From: a virus
IMG/VR virus record: IMGVR_UViG_3300021247_000478
Span: 1-33,612 of that record
Length of the DNA: 33,612 bases
Strand: one strand, 5' to 3'
Positions 22,371 to 31,284 of this stretch are shown in pieces. How positions within the stretch are numbered: position 1 is the first letter of the stretch; every line of letters begins with the position of its first letter. The notes beneath the pieces are model-generated. The model saw only the letters and a list, made by a program, of their open reading frames with translations, was not told the DNA's origin and searched no databases. A program made the translations under genes and the position numbers.

Positions 22371-22379
22371 ATTTTATCA
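22371..22379 (-). promoter_or_regulatory. Weak extended -10 before the LamG gene
   Basis: TGATAAAAT on the minus strand, overlapping the stop of the oxygenase gene and ending 9 nt before the ATG. No ribosome binding site is seen between, so transcription from here would give a 2-3 nt leader. Confidence 0.3.
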
Positions 22380-22907
22380 CACTATGCGTGTAAACCAACG
22401 AGGTGTTGTGTACCTTGTACCTTTACTTATGGCATTTACTCCATGCACAAATCGTGGTTGATCTGGAAAACAAATTAAATCCCCTGGCTCTGGCTTAATA
22501 GAAATGTTATAGTCTGGGAAATGTATTTCTCCACCTTCATAGTTATCGTTTAGATATACTAGGGTTGCTATATCATTTGGTCTAGAAGAGTCATAGTGGT
22601 CATGCATTCCATGCCCTTCTTCAAAACGTGCCAAGTGTGTTTTATGAGGGTTGAATGGCTCAAACTCTCCACCATATGTTTCTTTGACATGATTGTAAAC
22701 TTTTAAAGCATACTCTTGCAGAAGATCTAGAGTTAATCTATCATTTGCTTCAATCTCATGGTATGTATAAACCTTAAATTCTTTTTCATTATTACCATGC
22801 ATGTTAAAACTACTGTCAAATTTTACTGCATGTTGATGTATAAACTCAGCATCTTCTAACTTCATAAAACCTTTTACATGGTGTATTTGTGACACGTAAT
22901 CCTCCAT
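22377..22907 (-). CDS. Prolyl-4-hydroxylase-like 2OG-Fe(II) oxygenase
   Basis: A 176-aa protein starting MEDYVSQIHHVKG; its ATG overlaps the reductase stop (TAATG). It has the P4Hc fold signature: HxD iron ligands at His104-Tyr-Asp106 within GMHDHYD, the strand IATLVYLNDNYEGGEIHFP, PGDLICFP, distal His155 (FVHGV), and Arg165 ten residues later for 2-oxoglutarate. All catalytic residues are present, so an active hydroxylase is expected. It uses 2-oxoglutarate, O2 and Fe(II); the substrate (a protein prolyl residue or other) is unknown. It belongs to a different branch from the three paralogues encoded at 27800-25026. Such oxygenases are common in aquatic phages. Confidence 0.85.
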   Translation of the reverse strand: MEDYVSQIHHVKGFMKLEDAEFIHQHAVKFDSSFNMHGNNEKEFKVYTYHEIEANDRLTLDLLQEYALKVYNHVKETYGGEFEPFNPHKTHLARFEEGHGMHDHYDSSRPNDIATLVYLNDNYEGGEIHFPDYNISIKPEPGDLICFPDQPRFVHGVNAISKGTRYTTPRWFTRIV

Positions 22908-24937
22908 TATTTTACCTTAATCTCGCAGTAGTCTGTTGTGCAATATGCTTCTCCTGATGCTTCTAGATTGTCTACACCATCATAAATAGCACCAAAATCA
23001 ATATGCTTTAACTTTCCTACATAACCATTATACTCCTCTTCGGTAATCTGAGTATATGGTTGTTGTGGATAAACCGTGTTGCCCATAGGTAAGAATGACA
23101 CCGCCTTCAGTTGACCCTCATACATGTGAAGTGCTGGTGCAACATGCTTTGACTCTGTTTCTTTATCAAATGAAAGAGTTACAGAAACACCATTATCTGA
23201 CCAGTACTTTTGAGCAGTTGCTGCTAGAGCAATCTTCTCGAATAAAGTTACATCCTTTTCAGAACGAGGATGTCCTGACTTAACTGGGAAGTATACTACT
23301 TGTGTATTTGCTGATACAACATCCTTTTCAATCTTGTACCCTGCTGCCTTAAACAAGTGAAGCATTGGATCTGTATCGCCAAAACGAATTGCACGAAGGA
23401 AGAAGTTTCCTCCAGGACCCCAGTGAACTCCAGGAGTTGCACCAGAAAGAATTGATACTGATCCTGATGGCTTAACAGTTGTTACACGAATTGATTCACG
23501 AACACATAGCCATTCCGAATAAGAATGATCATATTTACGAATAGTATTATATCCTTCATCCATCCATTCACGAACAATAGGCAAACCCTTTTGATCAGCA
23601 AAAGATGCAATGCCAGTGAGAGAGGTTCCAATACGACGGTTTCTCTGCATGATACCGTTTGTTTGCTGCCAATGTGTTGGAAGTAATGTAACAGTCTTAC
23701 CATAAAGGTAAGCAAACTTCAATGTCTTGAGGAAGTCCTCCTTGGATTCATGTCGATTTAAGTGAACCTCTACAAGAGTACAAAGTTCATACGACTCCAA
23801 TGGCTGCTCCGCACAAGGATTGAAGCCCATAACACGATAGTCTTTTCCATCTGCAGGATCTGCTAGACGACCATAGTTACGAGCAACATCAAGCCAAATA
23901 AACCCTGGCTCTCCATTATTAACAATCAGATCGGTGTACTTTTCATAGTCCATTCCGACTGTTGCAGAAATTGAGTTATTTGACATCCATGCCCATCCTG
24001 GGTTCTCTGGATCAAACGAGTTACGGTCTGGGAAAACCTCTGCATTCTTAAGATTAATGAAGTCTTCATCTCCTGCTGCACCTAAAGCAAGTGTTGCGGA
24101 ACGACGAACATTCCCTGATACCACACATGTACCAATTAGATTAATGATATCTGTAATAGCACGACTATCAAGTGTTTCTCCTGCTCTACCGCCGATTACC
24201 TTGTCAATCTGTGCATGTAGTTGTATGAGTGGTGCTGGACCGCTGGCGACCCCGCCAAAGCCTTTAATTGGTGCTCCTAGAGGACGGATAAGGTCATAAT
24301 TAAACTTCTGAATAGGCTGGTTTTGACGAAGGTAAGAATTTAGTAAAATACGAACTGACTCTACCCAACCTTCACGAGTGTCTGGGATATCAAAAATCGC
24401 TGCTGGCTCAGTAGGGGCATAGATTTGAAAACCTTTATCCTGTCCCACTGTATCAAAGCCAACACCAATACCAAGCATCAAAGCATCCATTACCCAAGCA
24501 AACAAAGCACCTGGATCATTCTTGTCAAGATCCTTTGTTGAAACCATTGCACAGTTCTGCAGTGCTGCGGAGTTGCGCTTCTCCATAGTCATGGCAGTTC
24601 CAAATGTCCACATACCTCTTCCTGGTGGTGTCCACTTTAACTCAAACATTCTTTGAAATGCTTCTTGTGCTGATTTTTGAGCCTTGTAATCATTCCATGG
24701 TAGACGATTTTCTTTAGCATGATTTTTTTGAACTGAGTACATGCCTTCAATTACACGACGACAAACTTCATGCCAACGTTCTTTAGTTCCATCTTCCTTC
24801 ACACGTGAATATGTGCGAATAAAAGTAATTTCTCCAAGAGAGTTTTCTGCTGCATCTTTAAAACCAAATGGATTTGGTGCTGATACAAACTTCTCTACGA
24901 ATTCATCTGTTAATCTAAAACTAAAAAAATCTGACAT
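22907..24937 (-). CDS. nrdJ: Class II (adenosylcobalamin-dependent) ribonucleoside-triphosphate reductase
   Basis: A 676-aa monomeric RTPR-type enzyme that makes deoxyribonucleotides for phage replication. Key residues read directly: thiyl Cys375 in FNPCAEQPLESYELC, with Asn373 and Glu377; redox Cys386, eleven residues later as in the Lactobacillus enzyme; partner Cys129 (AALQNCAMV); a CVVSGNVRRSATL segment; and a C-terminal Cys666/Cys671 pair (AYCTTDYCEI) for re-reduction. It is shorter than the ~740-aa Lactobacillus protein but retains all these residues. The ribosome binding site is GAAAGGACG before ATG. It has its own extended -10 promoter overlapped by a palindrome. Class II enzymes need B12, so the host must make or import cobalamin. 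Confidence 0.95.
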   Translation of the reverse strand: MSDFFSFRLTDEFVEKFVSAPNPFGFKDAAENSLGEITFIRTYSRVKEDGTKERWHEVCRRVIEGMYSVQKNHAKENRLPWNDYKAQKSAQEAFQRMFELKWTPPGRGMWTFGTAMTMEKRNSAALQNCAMVSTKDLDKNDPGALFAWVMDALMLGIGVGFDTVGQDKGFQIYAPTEPAAIFDIPDTREGWVESVRILLNSYLRQNQPIQKFNYDLIRPLGAPIKGFGGVASGPAPLIQLHAQIDKVIGGRAGETLDSRAITDIINLIGTCVVSGNVRRSATLALGAAGDEDFINLKNAEVFPDRNSFDPENPGWAWMSNNSISATVGMDYEKYTDLIVNNGEPGFIWLDVARNYGRLADPADGKDYRVMGFNPCAEQPLESYELCTLVEVHLNRHESKEDFLKTLKFAYLYGKTVTLLPTHWQQTNGIMQRNRRIGTSLTGIASFADQKGLPIVREWMDEGYNTIRKYDHSYSEWLCVRESIRVTTVKPSGSVSILSGATPGVHWGPGGNFFLRAIRFGDTDPMLHLFKAAGYKIEKDVVSANTQVVYFPVKSGHPRSEKDVTLFEKIALAATAQKYWSDNGVSVTLSFDKETESKHVAPALHMYEGQLKAVSFLPMGNTVYPQQPYTQITEEEYNGYVGKLKHIDFGAIYDGVDNLEASGEAYCTTDYCEIKVK

Positions 24938-24970
24938 GTGTTTCGTCCTTTCAAAAACGGAATAGACTTA

Positions 24971-24979
24971 ATTATAGCA
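24971..24979 (-). promoter_or_regulatory. Extended -10 promoter for ribonucleotide reductase
   Basis: The minus strand reads TGCTATAAT in the 88-bp gap before the reductase gene. It is identical to the box before the short tail chaperone. A ~27-nt leader with GAAAGGA follows. Confidence 0.6.
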
Positions 24980-25003
24980 GAGTTTTGTAAAAAGCAAAAC
25001 TCT
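24979..25003 (-). promoter_or_regulatory. 9-bp palindrome overlapping the reductase promoter
   Basis: A perfect inverted repeat, AGAGTTTTG and CAAAACTCT with a 7-nt spacer, abuts the TGCTATAAT box. On the minus strand it is not followed by a T-tract, so it is a poor terminator. It may be an operator covering the -35 region, or a stem ending the upstream message. Confidence 0.4.
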
Positions 25004-25025
25004 CCCCTAAACTACTACTTTATAG

Positions 25026-25688
25026 TTATAAAAACTTAATCCAATTTGGATTATCTTCAATACCAAAACTAACTAATCTGCTAAATGGTACAACATCATA
25101 TGCAATAGTTATTCGTGGTTGTTCTTCATACCAATCATCTCTACCGTGTGAAAAACCATTTGCACATAAAACCATTCGATTGTTTTTATTTATATTGCTA
25201 AATACTTCTTGTTCGTTAATCTTGTAGTAGGTAATAGATGGCTCTGCATCAACACAGTAGTAGCCATGAAAGTCTGGTGCTCCAAAACCACCTAAATGAT
25301 CATGAAAAAACCTATTGTTTTTTAATGGACTGTATTCTTTATTATTTACAGATTTAATATCATAGTTAAACCAAGCACGTACCATATAGTTTTGTTCATC
25401 AAAATCGTATCCATAATGTTTACAGGCAATGCTTGTTAAAGTTTTTAACTCATCGTACATTTCTTTAATGATTGGATCATGGGACTTAAATAAATTATAC
25501 TTTTTATTTAGTTTGGTTGGAGCATTGTTTAATTTATTATATTTTTTAACTAATAAATCTGTCAACAGATTATCTTCTTTTAGGCTATTTGAAAGAATTT
25601 CTTCATGTTTAATATCTAAATATCTTTTTAAATTGTCTAAATCAATTGACAAAAAACTTTCAAAGATTTTAAAATTATCCTTATTCAT
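25026..25688 (-). CDS. 2OG-Fe(II) oxygenase-like protein, paralogue 3
   Basis: A 220-aa protein starting MNKDNFKIFESF, coupled to the glycosyltransferase gene by ATGA overlap. It aligns with the two paralogues at 27800-26536: AWFNYD, FFHDHLGGFGAPDFHGYYCVDAEPSITYYKI, NRMVLCANGFSHG and PRITIAYDVVP. Candidate iron ligands are in His129-Asp-His131 plus distal His181. Arg192 is the likely 2-oxoglutarate anchor. The distal motif is FSH instead of the HPH of its paralogues, and the shared EQHWIPL tail is diverged to NPNWIKFL. It is more AT-rich and more diverged than the other two. The substrate is unknown. Confidence 0.75.
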   Translation of the reverse strand: MNKDNFKIFESFLSIDLDNLKRYLDIKHEEILSNSLKEDNLLTDLLVKKYNKLNNAPTKLNKKYNLFKSHDPIIKEMYDELKTLTSIACKHYGYDFDEQNYMVRAWFNYDIKSVNNKEYSPLKNNRFFHDHLGGFGAPDFHGYYCVDAEPSITYYKINEQEVFSNINKNNRMVLCANGFSHGRDDWYEEQPRITIAYDVVPFSRLVSFGIEDNPNWIKFL

Positions 25689-26554
25689 GATACTGAGTTC
25701 AACTTTTCAATATATCTTCTGCCACCAACTGTATCTAACGAAGAATGTCTGTCATACTCTATATCATTAAAATCAAAAGGTAGCAGGTATAGTTTTTGAG
25801 CATCTATACCAGTTGCAGACAAGAATTTTGATGGATCTAGATAAATAAGTTTTGATGTTTTGTTGTTTATCATGAGATCTAAAACCTCATTATAATTATG
25901 ATTTAATGAAAAAGGGACATAGCCTCTTTCATGAATAGGTAAAGAAATGTTTTTATAATATCCAGATGGCAAAGAGTAAATATCTACATTATGATTTAAT
26001 AAGTACATAGAAATATATTCTTCTTCTCCATAATACTTTAATTGAGTGGGAATTTCAATCTGCTTAACTATATCAAATGATCCAAAGATAAAGTTTCTAT
26101 CAATGTAGGATGTCTGAGTAACCTTTTCTGTTCTTACTTTTTTCTTTTTAATATAAAAATTTTTATCTATTGATAAGTTATAAGCACTACATCCAGAAAT
26201 AACAGAGTTCTTTGGTAGCATATCTATAAGTTCTGTATCCCAGTTTAAAGGCATTTCGACATGTTGTTTTAGAAGCAAAGCATATTGATACTCTTTTTCA
26301 TAGTTTTGCTTTAAACATTTTTTTAAATAGTGTAGTGGACTTATCAATTCATCCCACCAAATAACTTCATAGAACAAGTCTTTGTGGTTTGAAAACTGCT
26401 TAAGTCTTGTTAAATTATTTTGATCACTAACATATATATGTAACCTATTATTTTTAGAACTACTATCTATTAGTTGATTAACAAACTCTAAAAGATTTGG
26501 CTCTTTATATGAATAGATATATACAAAGATATCTTTTATATTAGTGGTATCCAA
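25685..26554 (-). CDS. GT60-like glycosyltransferase (Skp1 GlcNAc-transferase type)
   Basis: A 289-aa protein. Motifs follow the order of GT60 / GlcNAc-transferase proteins: an IFVYIYSYKEPNLLEFV opening (family: SIASYRDPEL), ALLLKQHVEMPLNWDTELIDML (family: LQIDSHMRF..WD..LI), FIFGSFDIVKQI, and YYGEEEYISMYLLNHNVDIYSLP (family: GEEISMALRAYTHGYDLYSP). The family adds GlcNAc to hydroxyproline in Dictyostelium Skp1. The Asp of the IDSH motif is replaced here (LKQH), which could change metal use. The start is TTG at 26554, backed by AAGGAG six bases upstream and overlapping the previous gene by 19 nt; no ATG lies before the conserved first strand. It is sandwiched between oxygenase paralogues. Confidence 0.65.
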   Translation of the reverse strand: MDTTNIKDIFVYIYSYKEPNLLEFVNQLIDSSSKNNRLHIYVSDQNNLTRLKQFSNHKDLFYEVIWWDELISPLHYLKKCLKQNYEKEYQYALLLKQHVEMPLNWDTELIDMLPKNSVISGCSAYNLSIDKNFYIKKKKVRTEKVTQTSYIDRNFIFGSFDIVKQIEIPTQLKYYGEEEYISMYLLNHNVDIYSLPSGYYKNISLPIHERGYVPFSLNHNYNEVLDLMINNKTSKLIYLDPSKFLSATGIDAQKLYLLPFDFNDIEYDRHSSLDTVGGRRYIEKLNSVS

Positions 26555-27180
26555 TGCTGCTCCTTAGCAGTCCTAATAGTCTCTAAAGGTGTAACATCGT
26601 ATGCAATTGTAATTCTAAAGTCTTTTTCATTCCAACTTTGAATACCATGAGGATGACCAGTTTCAGATAAGACAGCACGGTTATTCTTGTTTACATTAGT
26701 AAACCTCTCTCCATCAATACCGCCTATCTTGTAGTAGGTGTTGGATGGTTCAGCATTGACGCAATAGTATCCATGAAAATCTGGAGCACCCTTTCCCTCT
26801 AAGTGATCATGCAGAAAACTATCTGGCAAAGGCTCTGGCTTTTGATAGTTATCAAAATTAAACCAGCCCTGAATCATATAGTTTTGTGCATCAAAGTCAA
26901 TACCATAATAAGAACATGCCTCTTTAGTCATTTCAGAAACTGCACGATAAATGTTGTGAAGTCCTTCATGATGAAATTGAAAAACATTATACTTAGAACC
27001 AAGATTTGTTGCTGGAGATCTATTCTCTAAAACATCAAAATCTTCTTTTGTAATGTTTGGAATTAAACCATTTTCTAGTCCATGCATCTTATCTTGTAAA
27101 AACTTTGTTAGAGAGTTAAGGTCATTACTTAAAATTCTATCAAAAAACTTATGCTGTTTATCTATTTTTACTGGACTCAT
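26536..27180 (-). CDS. 2OG-Fe(II) oxygenase-like protein, paralogue 2
   Basis: A 214-aa protein. The preferred start is ATG at 27180, overlapping the preceding stop as ATGA; a longer TTG start at 27195 lacks a ribosome binding site. It shares with paralogue 1 the blocks KYNVFQF, YMIQGWFNFD, LHDHLEGKGAPDFHGYYCVNAEPSNTYYKI, NRAVLSETGHPHG, FRITIAYDVTPL and the terminal EQHWIPLI. Candidate iron ligands lie in His124-Asp-His126 and distal His176/His178, with Arg189 as the cosubstrate anchor. The pattern recalls the '2OG-FeII_Oxy_5' type of phage oxygenases. It is probably a hydroxylase acting on a protein or small molecule not identified here. Confidence 0.75.
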   Translation of the reverse strand: MSPVKIDKQHKFFDRILSNDLNSLTKFLQDKMHGLENGLIPNITKEDFDVLENRSPATNLGSKYNVFQFHHEGLHNIYRAVSEMTKEACSYYGIDFDAQNYMIQGWFNFDNYQKPEPLPDSFLHDHLEGKGAPDFHGYYCVNAEPSNTYYKIGGIDGERFTNVNKNNRAVLSETGHPHGIQSWNEKDFRITIAYDVTPLETIRTAKEQHWIPLI

Positions 27181-27800
27181 ACTAACGGTATCCAATGCTG
27201 CTCAGAGGCTCTTGCTTGTGCTAAAGAACGCAATGGAACAATATCATATGCAATTGTGATTCTTGGACCTTCCCAATCCCAGTCTGCTTGTGCATGTGGG
27301 TGACCCATCTCAGAAATAATCATTCTATTGTCAATATTATTGTTGGCAATTTCTCTTTGCGGATCATTGAATATTCTATAATAAGTTACAGATGGTTCTG
27401 CTTTAACAGAATAGTATCCATGGAAGTGTGGTGCATATGGACCACCATGATCATGCCAATCCAACTTACCCTTTTTTGTATGGTTAATATTAAACCATCC
27501 TTGAACCATGTATTCTTGTTCTTCAAAGTTCAAGTCATAGTAATCGCATGCTTCACGCATAACTTCTGAAATGTTTTTATACAAATTATGAATATCTGGA
27601 TTTAAGAATTGAAAAACGTTATATTCTCTCCACTTTACAGTTGAAAGACTTCCTGACTCTGTCCAAATCTCACCTTGACCCAACTCTTTGATTCCTGGTA
27701 GTGTCTGGTCTTGAATTCTGTCATACTGGTAGGCTAGGTATTCTGCTAGTCTATTTGTATCAACATTTAAAAATCTTTCAAAAAACTTATGCTCTTTCAT
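27177..27800 (-). CDS. 2OG-Fe(II) oxygenase-like protein, paralogue 1
   Basis: A 207-aa protein starting MKEHKFFERFLNVD. ATG 27800 is chosen because AAAGGGAG lies 6 nt upstream and the start aligns with the paralogues; the longest frame begins at 27857. Conserved blocks are EYNVFQF, YMVQGWFNIN, WHDHGGPYAPHFHGYYSVKAEPSVTYYRI, NRMIISEMGHPHA, PRITIAYDIVPL and EQHWIPLV. Candidate iron ligands are in His116-Asp-His118, with distal His167/His169 and Arg180. A TGTATAAT box 25 nt upstream gives the three-oxygenase/glycosyltransferase group its own promoter. That box is also 6 nt before an in-frame ATG at 27818, so a leaderless form with six extra residues is possible. Confidence 0.75.
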   Translation of the reverse strand: MKEHKFFERFLNVDTNRLAEYLAYQYDRIQDQTLPGIKELGQGEIWTESGSLSTVKWREYNVFQFLNPDIHNLYKNISEVMREACDYYDLNFEEQEYMVQGWFNINHTKKGKLDWHDHGGPYAPHFHGYYSVKAEPSVTYYRIFNDPQREIANNNIDNRMIISEMGHPHAQADWDWEGPRITIAYDIVPLRSLAQARASEQHWIPLV

Positions 27801-27824
27801 TGTTTCTCCCTTTGACATATTCTT

Positions 27825-27832
27825 ATTATACA
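27825..27832 (-). promoter_or_regulatory. -10 promoter of the oxygenase-glycosyltransferase group
   Basis: The minus strand reads TGTATAAT, immediately after the stop of the upstream gene and 6 nt before the in-frame ATG 27818. The preferred ATG 27800 follows with a Shine-Dalgarno, so the message could start at either codon. Confidence 0.45.
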
Positions 27833-28570
27833 CTATGAGTAATTTTTCTTTCTCCACGCAAATTTTTTATAATATGCGAATAATCTAGTCCTTCTATTTT
27901 CTAGGTCATACTCTTTTTGAAGTATTTCCTCTGGATCTAGGCTAACTTCCATTTCCCAGTCTTCTCTTTTAAAAGGTATAAGTTGAAATAATGGAGTTCC
28001 TTTTGGTATTGTACCAATAAAGTTCTTTTTGAGAAAAAATGATATAAATACTGGAATTCCAAAAAGGTCTGACTCAATTATACCTGATGGTATTGTAAAC
28101 GGTAAATCATACCTATTCATTGGGTGTGTTAAAAGTATAGAGTACCCAGGTGGAGTTTCATAATACCAATGCATTCTTAAACCAAAATGCACAGGGTGAT
28201 GCCCTTCAGGTGGAACCATATCTAGGATATACCTTTTATCCATCATCATGAGCCTATCTTCTTCCCATGAAATTGTTGGCTTTCCATCTGGATCTAAAGA
28301 CACCTCTAGGTCTTGTGTTAGTTTATACACATATCCTGCCGTCATTGCATCTCTAAATGGATAACACATTTTTGTAGAAACATTTGCTCCATCTGTACCA
28401 CGATCATTAACTGGATTGAGAAACTCTACACTGTTAGTATCATAGTGTTGTGCAAGATCTTTATACCATTCTGGTATGTTTTTAATTGCAGGCTCAGGAT
28501 GTAATATATCATAGTTTTCGTACATCTCTAAAGAGGTTGTAAGAAACTTAATCTTTTTTGTCAATGCCAT
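27833..28570 (-). CDS. Uncharacterised phage accessory protein, family copy 3
   Basis: A 245-aa protein starting MALTKKIKFLTTS, overlapping the preceding gene by 10 nt. Motifs: IPEWYKDL (about 30), MCYPFRDAMTAGYV, LRMHWYYETPPGYSILLTHPMNRYDLPF, and IPKGTPLFQLIPFKREDWE near the C-terminus. The same motifs in the same order occur in the 239-aa product upstream, so the two are paralogues. Similar proteins recur in aquatic phages and marine bacteria without assigned function. There is no signal or membrane segment. The KGTP-x3-IPFKR strand-turn-strand end suggests a compact beta-rich domain. It is always next to oxygenase genes here; function unknown. Confidence 0.7.
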   Translation of the reverse strand: MALTKKIKFLTTSLEMYENYDILHPEPAIKNIPEWYKDLAQHYDTNSVEFLNPVNDRGTDGANVSTKMCYPFRDAMTAGYVYKLTQDLEVSLDPDGKPTISWEEDRLMMMDKRYILDMVPPEGHHPVHFGLRMHWYYETPPGYSILLTHPMNRYDLPFTIPSGIIESDLFGIPVFISFFLKKNFIGTIPKGTPLFQLIPFKREDWEMEVSLDPEEILQKEYDLENRRTRLFAYYKKFAWRKKNYS

Positions 28571-29280
28571 TCCTTTTTATGCCAAAAGTTTTTCTTGTAA
28601 TAATTAAAAAACTTACTTCTTATTAGCATTCGCTGAGTTTTTTGATTATCTTTGGAATCCTTATAATCAACATACTTGCTTTGCCACGATTCTCTTTTAA
28701 ATGGGATTACCTGTGCTATAGGCGTTCCCTTTTCTATAACTCCCTTAAAGGTATTTTCAATCTTAAAAGATAAAAACCCTTCGCTCATATATGAATCTGT
28801 ATCAATAATTCCAGGTACTATTTCAAAAGGGTAGTGCTCTTGATGCATAGGTTTCATAAATATTGCACTATATCCTTCTGATGTTTTTATTGACCACATA
28901 GGATTAATTCTTAAAACATCCTTATGCATATTTGATGGCATAGGATAGTGTGTTATTTGTTCTGGTGAATGCGTAGTAAATAGTTCTTTCTTTAATCCTG
29001 CAACTGCTATAGGAATATTATATTCAAGTTTTCCTGGATCAGTAGCATCAACATAAATGTCTACTGGACAGTAGAGAGTATATCCTGCAGTCATAGCATC
29101 AAATACTGGCATACACTTCTTAATAGTAGAGCCAGAAACTCCCTTTTTTAAGAACTCTTCTTTATTCACATAGGCTGGTTGCTTTCTATACCACTCTGGA
29201 ACATTTCTATGTGTTGGTGTTGGAAGGTCTATAAGATTTTGTGCATCTTCGCTCCATGGATGAAACTCTATATTTGGCAT
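28561..29280 (-). CDS. Uncharacterised phage accessory protein, family copy 2
   Basis: A 239-aa protein starting MPNIEFHPWSEDAQ. It shares with its downstream neighbour NVPEWYRKQP, KKCMPVFDAMTAGYT, NPMWSIKTSEGYSAIFMKPMHQEHYPFEI, GIIDTDSY, EKGTPIAQVIPFKRESW and an NYYKKNFWHKKEW tail (the neighbour ends YYKKFAWRKKN). This is clear paralogy and indicates tandem duplication. AGAGAGAAGTT before the ATG is a weak ribosome binding site. No enzyme motif could be identified. Position between the Hint protein and the oxygenases suggests a role linked to virion modification or capsid/tail decoration, but that is only context. Confidence 0.7.
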   Translation of the reverse strand: MPNIEFHPWSEDAQNLIDLPTPTHRNVPEWYRKQPAYVNKEEFLKKGVSGSTIKKCMPVFDAMTAGYTLYCPVDIYVDATDPGKLEYNIPIAVAGLKKELFTTHSPEQITHYPMPSNMHKDVLRINPMWSIKTSEGYSAIFMKPMHQEHYPFEIVPGIIDTDSYMSEGFLSFKIENTFKGVIEKGTPIAQVIPFKRESWQSKYVDYKDSKDNQKTQRMLIRSKFFNYYKKNFWHKKEWH

Positions 29281-29296
29281 AACTTCTCTCTATCTG

Positions 29297-29968
29297 TTAG
29301 AATCTGTGGAACTTATAGTTTGCATAAAAGTTTTTTAAGGATGCTAATTCTTTTTCATCCAACATAACCTTTATATCATACATAGGAGTTCCTATACTAA
29401 TTTTACCATGCTTTGGATTTATCATGTGTTCCCCGTCTTTTTTAAACAAGAAATTAATAAAATGTGGCTCAACTACTGAGACATTTGTATCTATTGGATC
29501 AACTTTAGCCTCTTGTATTACAAAGGGGGTGTATTCATCTTTTACTGCTAATATTTCATATTCTCTATTTAGATCAAAGAACCATGGAGAATAAAACCTA
29601 TAGGGGACCATAAAGGTACCGTCGGCTTTAAACAATTTATCTGAACAGTAAAACTGCCTTATATGTGGTCTATCTAAAAAATAAAATCCAAGCCTATAAT
29701 CTCTTTTAATCCATATTTCTGCATGAGTGCGTTGTCTCAAATAGGCAAAACCATTTTCATACTTTAAAAATTCTGGAGCAGGGTATAGATTATAAACATA
29801 ATCATTAATTGGCTTTAGCACAGAGTTTCTTAGATCACTATTTCTATTTACATACTGATACTCTACAAAAAGCCTATTACAGTTGCTTTTATTGATAATT
29901 TCAACAAAAGACATGTTGTAAGTACTTAGCCAGAACTCAGATGGCTTTGGATGTTTATCTCCACGCAT
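29297..29968 (-). CDS. Uncharacterised protein, possible diverged family copy 1
   Basis: A 223-aa protein starting MRGDKHPKPSEFWL. ATG 29968 lies 4 nt after the Hint stop; a longer frame from 30097 would overlap the Hint coding sequence and is not credible. Weak matches to the two following proteins can be seen: SPWFFDLNREYEILAVKDEYTPF in the place of the TPPGYSILLTHPM block, and KISIGTPMYDIKVML in the place of KGTPLFQLIPF. It lacks the IPEW and DAMTAGY motifs. It may be a diverged third copy or an unrelated protein. Function unknown. Confidence 0.6.
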   Translation of the reverse strand: MRGDKHPKPSEFWLSTYNMSFVEIINKSNCNRLFVEYQYVNRNSDLRNSVLKPINDYVYNLYPAPEFLKYENGFAYLRQRTHAEIWIKRDYRLGFYFLDRPHIRQFYCSDKLFKADGTFMVPYRFYSPWFFDLNREYEILAVKDEYTPFVIQEAKVDPIDTNVSVVEPHFINFLFKKDGEHMINPKHGKISIGTPMYDIKVMLDEKELASLKNFYANYKFHRF

Positions 29969-29972
29969 TTTA

Positions 29973-30584
29973 TTACTTGTTGTGAGTAATAAAGTCACCA
30001 GCAATAATAAGATCTGCTGGTTCAGCACTGAAGGTGTAAACAGTCTTTTCACCTGAAGAAATGTCAATCTTGTTAACCATAACTTCTGTATAAGCATTTA
30101 GTGAAGGACTATACTTAAAGATAACATCTGATGTTTCAATTTCAGCAACCATTGCAAAGCCATACTTTGTAACTCCATCAATTTGCTTCTTTACAAGCAT
30201 CGGATGCTCTAGTGTAAACTGAGCAGAATCATCACCATTAAAGTAGATTGTTTGAATCTTGGTAGATTCTTCTACGTCAGTGATTGTTGTTTCTGAATTA
30301 TTTACAAAATTAAGTGTTTCTGATGACCAGTTAAATACTTCATAGTCTGGTGCTGAAGGATCAATTTCCATATAATCTGCAGACATAACTACATCTCCTA
30401 CAGCAATATCCTTTGCTTGCTTAGCAACTACTTCATTATTTGAATTAACCAAGGTCTTCTTTCCAGTTGCCTCATCTACTGAGATAACTCCAACCCCTGG
30501 CTTAATTCTAATAAATGTATCTCCGTCAATACACTTTACACCGTAAGAAGTTGTTGAGAACCCATATGGAGAGAATCCAAATGG
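29973..30584 (-). CDS. Hint (intein-like) C-terminal half, in shifted frame
   Basis: This frame carries a complete Hint domain of 186 aa from Cys at 30533 to the end. Intein blocks in order: A (CIDGDTFIRI), the following AKDIAVGDVVMSADYME, B (FTLEHPMLVKK), and the C-terminal VYTFSAEPADLIIAGDFITHNK with the His-Asn pair. The residue after Asn is Lys and is the last one, so normal protein splicing is not possible; cleavage or crosslinking as in bacterial intein-like domains is possible. It has no start codon of its own before Cys. It continues the PFGFSPYGF repeat of the FnIII frame upstream, so it is read as the C-terminal half of one gene (31284-29973) joined by a +1 or -2 shift near 30585, giving 436 aa. 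Alternatives are a decayed gene or assembly error. Confidence 0.7.
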   Translation of the reverse strand, partial: PFGFSPYGFSTTSYGVKCIDGDTFIRIKPGVGVISVDEATGKKTLVNSNNEVVAKQAKDIAVGDVVMSADYMEIDPSAPDYEVFNWSSETLNFVNNSETTITDVEESTKIQTIYFNGDDSAQFTLEHPMLVKKQIDGVTKYGFAMVAEIETSDVIFKYSPSLNAYTEVMVNKIDISSGEKTVYTFSAEPADLIIAGDFITHNK

Positions 30585-31284
30585 AGAATCCGAATGGTGA
30601 GAATCCGAACACACCAAACGGTGAGAATCCAAACACGGAAAATGGTGTAAATGTAAACGCTGATGTAATTGATGTTGACTCTGAAGATGTTCCAGAGTTA
30701 CCATTAGCATTTGTTGCATAAACATTATAGGTTTGACCTGTACCAGATTCTTGCAAAACAACTACTGAAGTTGATGCTGTATCTCCAGACTTTCCATCAG
30801 AAGATACCCAGTGATAGTTAGTTATAGCACTTCCACCATTAGCAGGAGCAGTCCATGAAACTGTATCATTTGCAGTATTTGCTGTACCTTGTGGAACAGT
30901 TGCATCTCCTGTTGCTGCTGTGCTTACGCTTGGTGCAGCAGGAGTTGCTGGAACTGTTGTTGCAGTAATGCTGTTAGATGCTGCTGATGCTGGAGATGTT
31001 CCTTCAGCATTTGTTGCAGTAACAGTAAATGTATATGCTACATCTGACTGTAAACCTGTAACTGAAATTGGAGAAGAAGCACCAGTTGCAGTGTAACCTC
31101 CAGGAGAAGATGTCACAGTAAATGATGTTGCTGCGTTTACTGGATCAGCAGTAAATGTTACATCCGCCCGACCATTATTGTATGCCCGTCCAGAACCAAC
31201 ATTTGTTGCTGTTCCGATTGTTGGAGCGTATGGTGCCAAGAAGTCATTTGCTCCTTGACTCATTCTACCTGCTTGCTTTGACAT
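30526..31284 (-). CDS. Fibronectin type III virion protein, N-terminal half
   Basis: Starts MSKQAGRMSQGANDFLAPYAP after AAAGGGGA. Two FnIII domains are evident: about residues 15-110 (PTIGTATNVGSG ... YTFTVTATNAEGTSPAS) and 115-213 (PAAPSVSTAATG ... YNVYATNANGNSGTSS). Then comes a run of Phe/Gly/Ser/Pro repeats (FTPFSVFGFSPFGVFGFSPFGFS). After codon TCC at 30585-30583 the frame leaves the repeat and reads SIWILSIWVLNNFLRCKVY to a stop at 30526, an abnormal end. FnIII proteins of this type decorate tails or capsids and bind carbohydrate. The gene is placed between the tail fibre and accessory cassette. Confidence 0.75.
   Translation of the reverse strand: MSKQAGRMSQGANDFLAPYAPTIGTATNVGSGRAYNNGRADVTFTADPVNAATSFTVTSSPGGYTATGASSPISVTGLQSDVAYTFTVTATNAEGTSPASAASNSITATTVPATPAAPSVSTAATGDATVPQGTANTANDTVSWTAPANGGSAITNYHWVSSDGKSGDTASTSVVVLQESGTGQTYNVYATNANGNSGTSSESTSITSAFTFTPFSVFGFSPFGVFGFSPFGFSIWILSIWVLNNFLRCKVY
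30545..30646 (-). repeat. Short tandem Phe-Gly-Ser-Pro repeat at the frame break
   Basis: Imperfect repeats of about 15 bases around GGATTCTC-x-CC-A-TT-T/C occur on the minus strand. One unit (30591-30579) is 13 bases, two short of the 15-base unit seen upstream and downstream, and this is exactly where the frame changes. Confidence 0.65.

Follow-up and report, generated by a model that had tools for sequence, protein, structure and literature searches.

A GT60-like glycosyltransferase gene set among paralogous 2OG oxygenase genes behind a phage fibre gene: a possible protein-modification cassette

The IMG/VR virus record IMGVR_UViG_3300021247_000478, whose 33,612 bases are the whole stretch of DNA analyzed here (the window), carries three paralogous genes for oxygenases of the 2-oxoglutarate (2OG)/Fe(II) type, which we call the OX family, and among them a gene for a glycosyltransferase (GT) distantly related to family GT60. 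They stand behind a gene for an FnIII fibre with a proline-containing repeat. We see roughly even chances that these genes form a protein-modification cassette, in which the OX enzymes and a nearby prolyl 4-hydroxylase (P4H)-like enzyme hydroxylate the fibre repeat and the GT60-like enzyme then glycosylates it. The genes concerned, all on the minus strand, are listed below; loci in related contigs are designated by L numbers and gene families by c numbers.

27177..27800, minus strand: OX copy 1, 207 aa, assigned by its phrog_2696 match and the OX alignments, with the conserved HxH...H...RxT pattern
26536..27180, minus strand: OX copy 2, 214 aa, assigned by its structure model
25685..26554, minus strand: GT60-like glycosyltransferase, 289 aa, TTG start, matching PF11397
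25026..25688, minus strand: OX copy 3, 220 aa, assigned by the OX alignments and its phrog_2696 match
27833..28570, minus strand: DUF6065-like protein 2, matching phrog_7084 (128.5 bits)
28561..29280, minus strand: DUF6065-like protein 1, matching phrog_7084 (168.8 bits) and, below the cut-off, PF19541
29297..29968, minus strand: c10, a family of unknown function that co-occurs with the window GT family
29973..31284, minus strand: FnIII fibre with a (GF[S/T]PF)n repeat and a C-terminal Hint-like domain, in two overlapping open reading frames (ORFs); candidate substrate
22377..22907, minus strand: P4H-like 2OG oxygenase, matching PF13640, with an HYD...H...R pattern
22907..24937, minus strand: B12-dependent ribonucleotide reductase, matching PF17975 (107.1 bits) and PF21995 (55.7 bits); a neighbour, probably outside the cassette proper

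An earlier note on this DNA had described three paralogous oxygenase-like genes coupled by overlaps, the second and third of them separated by a GT60-like gene, and a further P4H-like oxygenase gene about 2 kb downstream. That arrangement is borne out: the overlaps measure 4 nt (copy 1/copy 2), 19 nt (copy 2/GT) and 4 nt (GT/copy 3), and the P4H-like gene lies 2.1 kb downstream of the cassette, with the B12-type ribonucleotide reductase gene in between. The extent that the note gave to the cassette was too small, as judged from gene content in relatives: beyond the three OX genes and the GT, the set appears to include c10 and the DUF6065-like genes.

The three OX copies are 37-44% identical to one another. 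An AlphaFold2 (AF2) model of copy 2, made from a 58-sequence alignment, had a predicted local distance difference test score (pLDDT) of 95.1 and a predicted template modeling score (pTM) of 0.91. It matched 3bvc (Z 16.1, 175 aa, 3.3 A), 2rg4 (Z 15.8) and PHD2 (5v18, Z 12.8), that is, protein or small-molecule hydroxylases, and predicts for copy 2 the double-stranded beta-helix (DSBH) fold of 2OG/Fe(II) oxygenases, which copies 1 and 3 would share by homology. Residues H124, H126, H178, R189 and T191 are each conserved in 53-55 of the 58 members. No 2OG family in Pfam was matched by any of the 58 at E<=0.05, and in PHROGs the three copies fall into phrog_2696 (42.2, 19.4 and 20.8 bits for copies 1, 2 and 3), a family listed as of unknown function that gains a likely fold and context from this analysis. 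Cyanophage ACG-2014b gp024 belongs to the same family (261.5 bits); P-SSM2 PSSM2_057 and an S-CAM1 protein, whose matches to phrog_2696 are weak, match PF13759 at 40.1 and 32.4 bits. It is by this bridge through cyanophage relatives that we link the OX family to PF13759, and the PF13759 cyanophage proteins carry the same HxH pattern as OX. The phage-isolate collection held relatives of copy 1 in 38 cyanophage or marine virus records, all below 60% identity, and none of copy 2 or of the window GT at E<=0.01. OX relatives were absent from the cellular genome contigs searched, and a search of solved structures by sequence returned nothing usable for OX, the GT, DUF6065 or c10. The P4H-like protein scored 46.6 bits against PF13640 (cut-off 27), and its sequence shows HYD, VHG and R in keeping with the HxD...H...R pattern.

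The GT scored 27.8 bits against PF11397, for which the gathering cut-off is 21, but the match covers no more than profile positions 1-42. Its relative in L107 matched positions 207-264 at 20.2 bits, just under the cut-off; 10 of the 16 family members matched at E<=0.05. When the 16-member profile was aligned by hhalign with eight phage GT60 proteins, the probability was 97.9 and the E-value 6.4e-13 over 194 columns. The WD and GEE motifs common to GT60 are kept in most family members, and GEEEY at positions 176-180 aligns with the EE of GT60; we take GEE to be the acidic motif of the GT60 acceptor/catalytic side. In the AF2 model (pLDDT 87.2, pTM 0.86) the best match by Z was GalNAc-T2 (6nqt_F; Z 17.6, 240 aa, 3.1 A, 12% identity), and further matches included LH3 (6fxm, Z 14.8) and COLGALT1 (9evj, Z 13.4). 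Ranked by Foldseek E-value, the glycosyltransferase 9u7i came first and mimivirus R699 (9e92_B, 18% identity) third. The profile and structure comparisons of the 289-aa protein thus agree with the relationship that the earlier note had proposed, and point to a distant GT60 relative on a divergent branch; we name it GT60-like rather than GT60 because it fails one defining motif, DxH. The modeled fold favours protein glycosyltransferases without singling them out.

The same structural comparisons bear on a DNA-based explanation, in which a TET/JBP-type oxygenase would make a hydroxymethyl base and the GT would glycosylate it. Phages do use TET/JBP-type DNA hypermodification pathways. In favour of one here, the P4H-like protein scores weakly against Tet_JBP (19.5 bits, cut-off 34.9), a ribonucleotide reductase gene adjoins the cassette, and one DUF6065-like protein has a weak dUTPase match in the stretch GIIDTD...KGTPIAQ (E 0.075). 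Against this, the OX fold resembles protein and small-molecule hydroxylases, and Pfam's Tet_JBP was matched by none of the OX proteins. In a viral structure library, where the best match of the GT was an uncharacterised phage protein (33% identity), phage models annotated as 'Glycosyltransferase, GlcNAc' (GT60) matched at template modeling (TM) scores of 0.59-0.70, whereas a TET-associated GT ranked 47th with TM 0.41. Moreover, we know of no role for three OX paralogues or for the sulfotransferases of related loci in DNA pathways. We consider DNA hypermodification very improbable.

Further support for the protein-modification cassette comes from the position of the GT gene in other phages. We counted adjacency in 28 loci, where an oxygenase had to be OX or P4H-like and lie directly beside the GT on the same strand; contig repeats and near-identical loci, such as L009-L012, L014-L017, L057, L062-L064, L067, L071 and L120, were dropped before the count. 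All 20 window-GT family genes lie beside a 2OG oxygenase gene, against a mean of 8.8-8.9 in within-locus shuffles (0 of 2000 reached 20), a count inflated by the finding of many loci through OX or GT searches and taken over related loci whose genes share ancestry and are not independent events. Five loci had been picked regardless of an oxygenase beside the GT, L107 from the GT search and L113, L116, L117 and L119 from a PF11397 search on OX-bearing contigs, and in all five the GT lies beside an oxygenase (shuffled mean 1.0, 3/5000). The partner there is P4H-like instead of OX. Of the four such genes compared with Pfam, that of L113 scored over the cut-off and those of L107, L116 and L117 had no match; in these three and in L119 the gene is labelled P4H because it resembles the c1 family, with E-values of 7e-23 or better. 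Canonical GT60 genes stand beside an oxygenase in 3 of 12 cases (shuffled mean 0.79, 61/2000), or in 5 of 12 (mean 1.1, 4/2000) if two proteins of 186-190 aa in L110 and L112 are counted. The lower count leaves these two out because their Pfam support as oxygenases is weak, one matching PF13532 at 18.4 bits (cut-off 31.2) and the other having no match. The recount weakens the association of canonical GT60 with oxygenases and strengthens that of the window-GT family. Co-occurrence of GT and oxygenase genes in other phages, which the earlier note had named as a check, is found. The PF11397 searches gave matches over the cut-off in 5 of 24 contig records and in 3 of 43.

The FnIII fibre, with its [S/T]-Pro-Phe repeat, appears a good candidate for the substrate. 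At least five [STAV]P[FYW] motifs per 60 residues occur in 48 of the 52 non-identical full-length c2 (FnIII) fibres, the fibres without the dense motif being those of L085, L088, L091 and L093, and none of 630 other proteins of the same loci has four in 60 residues. The proline position of the repeat is occupied by Pro in 390 of 392 matches. OX lies at a distance of one to four genes behind the FnIII fibre in 81/81 loci with a visible fibre, as the first gene in 38; these loci had been selected through OX or the GT, and in some cases more than one lies on the same contig. In L003 the fibre is a single ORF (fn3, 35.3 bits).

The folds, the homology to GT60, the coupling of the genes, their repeated association with 2OG oxygenases and the fibre repeat are what the analysis shows; the substrate, the residue, the sugar, the order of the steps and catalysis itself we infer. 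The OX enzymes, together with the P4H-like one nearby, would hydroxylate side chains in the GF[S/T]PF tail of the fibre, prolines being the likeliest targets. With a nucleotide-sugar as donor, the GT60-like enzyme would then attach a sugar to the hydroxyl so formed or to the adjacent Ser or Thr. As constant partners, c10 and the two DUF6065-like proteins might serve in substrate recognition or in a further step, and in other phages the sulfotransferase or carbamoyltransferase genes of similar cassettes could add other decorations.

Besides the origin and relatedness of the loci given with the adjacency counts, several observations weigh against this pathway. D[SA]H is present in 12/12 phage GT60 proteins and in 0/19 readable window-GT family members; where GT60 has DxH the window GT has K96-Q97-H98, and Asp at positions 96-98 occurs in 0/10 members of the window clade, so the enzyme may be inactive or metal-independent (outside the clade, 8 of 9 family members have Asp at 97 or 98). 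A six-frame PF11397 search at E<=0.001 detected the window-GT family in 1 of 17 carrier contigs, under the cut-off. The fold matches also include a polysaccharide synthase, heparosan synthase 2 (8viw, Z 15.2), which scores higher than LH3 and COLGALT1. The OX motif is HxH...H...RxT, not HxD. In the OX sample, the best 80 of 411 loci, 61 have no GT in the fetched stretch, five of these contigs (L073, L076, L077, L085 and L091) carrying the window GT family elsewhere. The fibre repeat is equally present in phages without the window GT and so tracks OX, not the GT; in L107-type phages the GT cassette does not adjoin the FnIII fibre; and a DUF6065 relative adjoins thymidylate synthase in a halovirus. 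GT activity is the weakest link of the proposed pathway.

These points on the GT are what a second explanation builds on, one of the two strongest rivals, by which the protein no longer transfers sugar but serves the oxygenases as a scaffold or by binding peptide, in a cassette that only hydroxylates. In addition to the missing DxH, the GT model matches residues 293-520 of LH3, the LH3 accessory domain, and its tail (263-289), left unplaced by the model with pLDDT under 50, holds N263, D264, Y267 and D274 invariant in 16/16 members, as a docking tail might. However, the WD and GEE motifs of GT60 are conserved in most members, and metal-independent GT-A enzymes exist. We consider a dead scaffold unlikely. 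The hydroxylate-then-glycosylate pathway that the earlier note proposed is partly supported and is the reading that we prefer: GT60 homology, the peptide-GT fold, the adjacency and the fibre repeat speak for it, and the absence of DxH speaks against it. GlcNAc, the sugar that the note had named, is not supported by any observation.

The partner genes place the proposed protein-modification cassette in a wider neighbourhood. In related contigs the fibre genes and the FnIII fibre (c2) usually come first; accessory genes and two to four OX genes follow, then the ribonucleotide reductase and P4H-like genes, and finally tail protein and portal, although some loci are without one or another of these. 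All 27 c10 loci of the first set, several of which share a contig, also hold the window GT family; apart from L053, which has a true GT60, the first-set GT loci without c10 are truncated on their upstream side. The two genes also occur together in L107, L116, L117, L119 and L120. Together with one or more DUF6065-like genes, c10 and the GT reappear as a unit in other genomic contexts: in L049/L104 with OX flanking the GT on both sides and a carbamoyltransferase (L049: PF16861, 186.2 bits), and in L107, L116, L117 and L119/L120 with P4H-like genes. A carbamoyltransferase gene is found in L107, L116 and L119/L120, not in L117 (Pfam was run on L049 and L107 only). The DUF6065 assignment comes from PF19541, which the window proteins match at 21.1 and 11.5 bits, below the cut-off of 26.6; in the family alignment 15 of 20 members match at E<=0.1, the best at 2.7e-7. 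Two relatives turned up in cellular genome contigs, on viral-looking contigs. A dUTPase-like fold for DUF6065 was rejected, the dUTPase match mentioned above being its sole support, as was a merger of c10 and DUF6065 into one family, for which the profile match was too weak (probability 53%, E 1.3e-4).

The recurrence of this unit speaks to a third explanation, that the structural module has a tolerant slot where unrelated cargo genes have gathered. The slot does differ in content from phage to phage, and the GC (guanine plus cytosine) content of the GT and OX copy 3 (27-28%) differs from that of OX copies 1 and 2 (34-36%), which suggests that the former pair was acquired separately from the latter. 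Against unrelated cargo, c10, the DUF6065-like genes and the GT with its oxygenase recur jointly in other contexts, and no shuffle in 2000 reached the observed GT-oxygenase adjacency; we regard it as improbable.

Related loci also carry other group-transfer enzymes. Sulfotransferase c13 is found in 12 loci (PF03567, 23 bits, cut-off 22; one member tested) and sulfotransferase c20 in 2 (PF00685, 27.6 bits, cut-off 22; one member tested), and an Asp/Asn beta-hydroxylase, c31, occurs in L091 and L093 (PF05118, 47.1 bits; one member tested). These two loci, related to each other and the only ones with c31 (n = 2), are also the only ones with the altered fibre repeat FGFSPTPPF. Sugars and metabolites are substrates of carbamoyltransferases and sulfotransferases, and this fits the other of the strongest rivals, that the cassette modifies a host glycan, a capsule or cell-wall polymer or a small molecule, its enzymes acting on sugars and not on a phage protein. 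Cyanophage clusters of 2OG oxygenase and carbamoyltransferase genes have been assigned to capsular polysaccharide or secondary metabolites, according to the cited part of a review of jumbo phages (PMC7824862). OX stands among GT genes in L053 and L059 (PF13524, 81.6 bits; PF13692, 28 bits), an epimerase-like gene (by inspection only) follows the canonical GT60 in L114, and polysaccharide synthases, such as the heparosan synthase 2 cited above, are likewise among the fold matches of the GT. Yet no nucleotide-sugar synthesis gene was found among the window genes identified (22377-31284), the best Z matches of the GT are peptide GTs, and OX genes follow the FnIII fibre wherever a fibre is visible. 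Decoration of a glycan or metabolite seems to us rather unlikely.

The variety of these enzymes raises a broader version of the protein-modification cassette, which we put forward as a tentative and somewhat doubtful idea: a modular phage post-translational modification in which a proline motif of the fibre would be hydroxylated and the hydroxyl then given an interchangeable sugar, sulfate or carbamoyl group, by way of a GT60 branch without the metal motif together with c10 and DUF6065. If true, bacterial viruses would have their own equivalent of collagen and Skp1 hydroxyl-glycosylation, with c10 and DUF6065 as partner families not known from any such pathway. Hydroxylate-then-glycosylate protein chemistry is itself already known, chiefly in eukaryotes and in giant viruses; new here would be its occurrence in a phage, the families that accompany it and the variation among the decorating enzymes. 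The cassette itself, if the pathway holds, would mean that hydroxylation-dependent protein glycosylation works in tailed phages too, as a compact gene set. It would account for the two to four paralogous 2OG oxygenases kept behind the fibre gene in these actinophages, offer a test of oxygen-dependent virion assembly and provide a source of small enzymes for peptide hydroxylation and glycosylation.

Several known systems resemble parts of this arrangement. In the Skp1 pathway of Dictyostelium and Toxoplasma, the GT60 enzyme Gnt1 puts N-acetylglucosamine (GlcNAc) on a hydroxyproline in dependence on the prolyl 4-hydroxylase PhyA, as the cited excerpt reports (PMC6939170). The pairing of a 2OG oxygenase with a GT60-family GT is common to both, whereas the Skp1 substrate is a cytoplasmic eukaryotic regulator and the window GT is without DxH. 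To our knowledge, no c10, DUF6065 or OX paralogues occur in that pathway. The mimivirus collagen pathway, with the lysyl hydroxylase/glucosyltransferase L230 and with R699, described in the cited passage as a collagen galactosylhydroxylysyl glucosyltransferase (PMC9546862), likewise joins virus-encoded hydroxylation and subsequent glycosylation on a repetitive structural protein, and the R699 structure is the one ranked third by Foldseek. Mimivirus is a virus of amoebae whose GT and oxygenase families differ from those of the window, and there, as with animal LH3 and COLGALT1, the modified residue is hydroxylysine in collagen Gly-X-Y repeats. The polypeptide GalNAc-transferases (GT27) are the best fold match and perform peptide O-glycosylation, at an identity of only 12%. 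They retain DxH and a lectin domain. In Streptomyces phage Coruscant (Stanwilliamsviridae) the same order of GT gene, ribonucleotide reductase, LamG protein and portal is found, but the GT falls into a different family (GT4-conflict, 46.9 bits) and no oxygenase is annotated in the stretch. We know of no oxygenase step in the virion glycosylation of mycobacteriophages. That system is similar in that phage-encoded GTs have been proposed to modify an actinophage structural protein, the capsid protein, in the part of the paper cited (PMC11256854). The nearest precedent among the literature matches listed is that of the cyanophage 2OG oxygenases beside carbamoyltransferases, which are group transferases; those clusters differ in their assignment to capsule or secondary-metabolite chemistry, and the cited part mentions no GT60-like gene or fibre repeat (PMC7824862). 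No description of a phage oxygenase-GT60 cassette was found among the open-access matches listed, and a search of the open-access literature for DUF6065 returned no paper.

The window appears to derive from an actinophage, with the cassette inside the structural module: its portal is 46-48% identical to those of Streptomyces phages and its ribonucleotide reductase 61.8% identical to that of Actinomycetia phage DSL-LC01, identities that point to an actinophage, and the related locus L049 contains a WhiB gene. Two details of the earlier note have to be revised. It had placed the edge of the cassette at 27857, where OX copy 1 has a possible GTG start; the ATG at 27800 is most likely the start, since AAAGGGAGAAAC stands upstream of it and the L005 homologue begins at the same place. 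The single shared promoter that it described is not supported either, as promoter-like sites in the window number 35 against 39.5 expected, not above chance, the only 12-of-12 site (25565-25536) lies inside OX copy 3, and same-strand genes continue upstream of copy 1 (two DUF6065-like genes, c10 and the fibre genes). An AGGAG stands upstream of the TTG start of the GT.

The fibre gene of the window is split by a frame shift near 30580, inside the GFSPF repeat, where relatives such as L003 have one ORF; the shift may be an assembly error, slippage or phase variation. In the window clade the fibre ends in a Hint/intein-like domain (seen within window 29973-30761 and L003 3192-4550; from near CIDGDTFIR to THNK), which matches the Pfam intein model below the cut-off (12.3 bits for the L003 fibre, 17.6 bits for L110) and makes autoprocessing of the fibre possible. 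In L110 (7530-10529) and L112 (6206-9258), a canonical GT60 with DSH overlaps the gene for the 186-190 aa protein mentioned above, possibly a DSBH oxygenase, and this pair is preceded by a gene for a Thr/Pro-rich, mucin-like protein with (TP)n or (PVAPT)n repeats, which suggests a second cassette in sister phages. On L122, a 5.3-kb contig where no GT is seen, the genes P4H-P4H-DUF6065-DUF6065-P4H come after an FnIII fibre whose repeat is (FFPFFPP)n. The contexts in L110, L112 and L122 would agree with proline as the target, without proving it. Finally, L113 (1769-8461) contains a run of SGNH-like genes (by inspection; the one tested had no Pfam match), a carbamoyltransferase-like gene and two GT60 genes, which suggests a larger decoration cluster.

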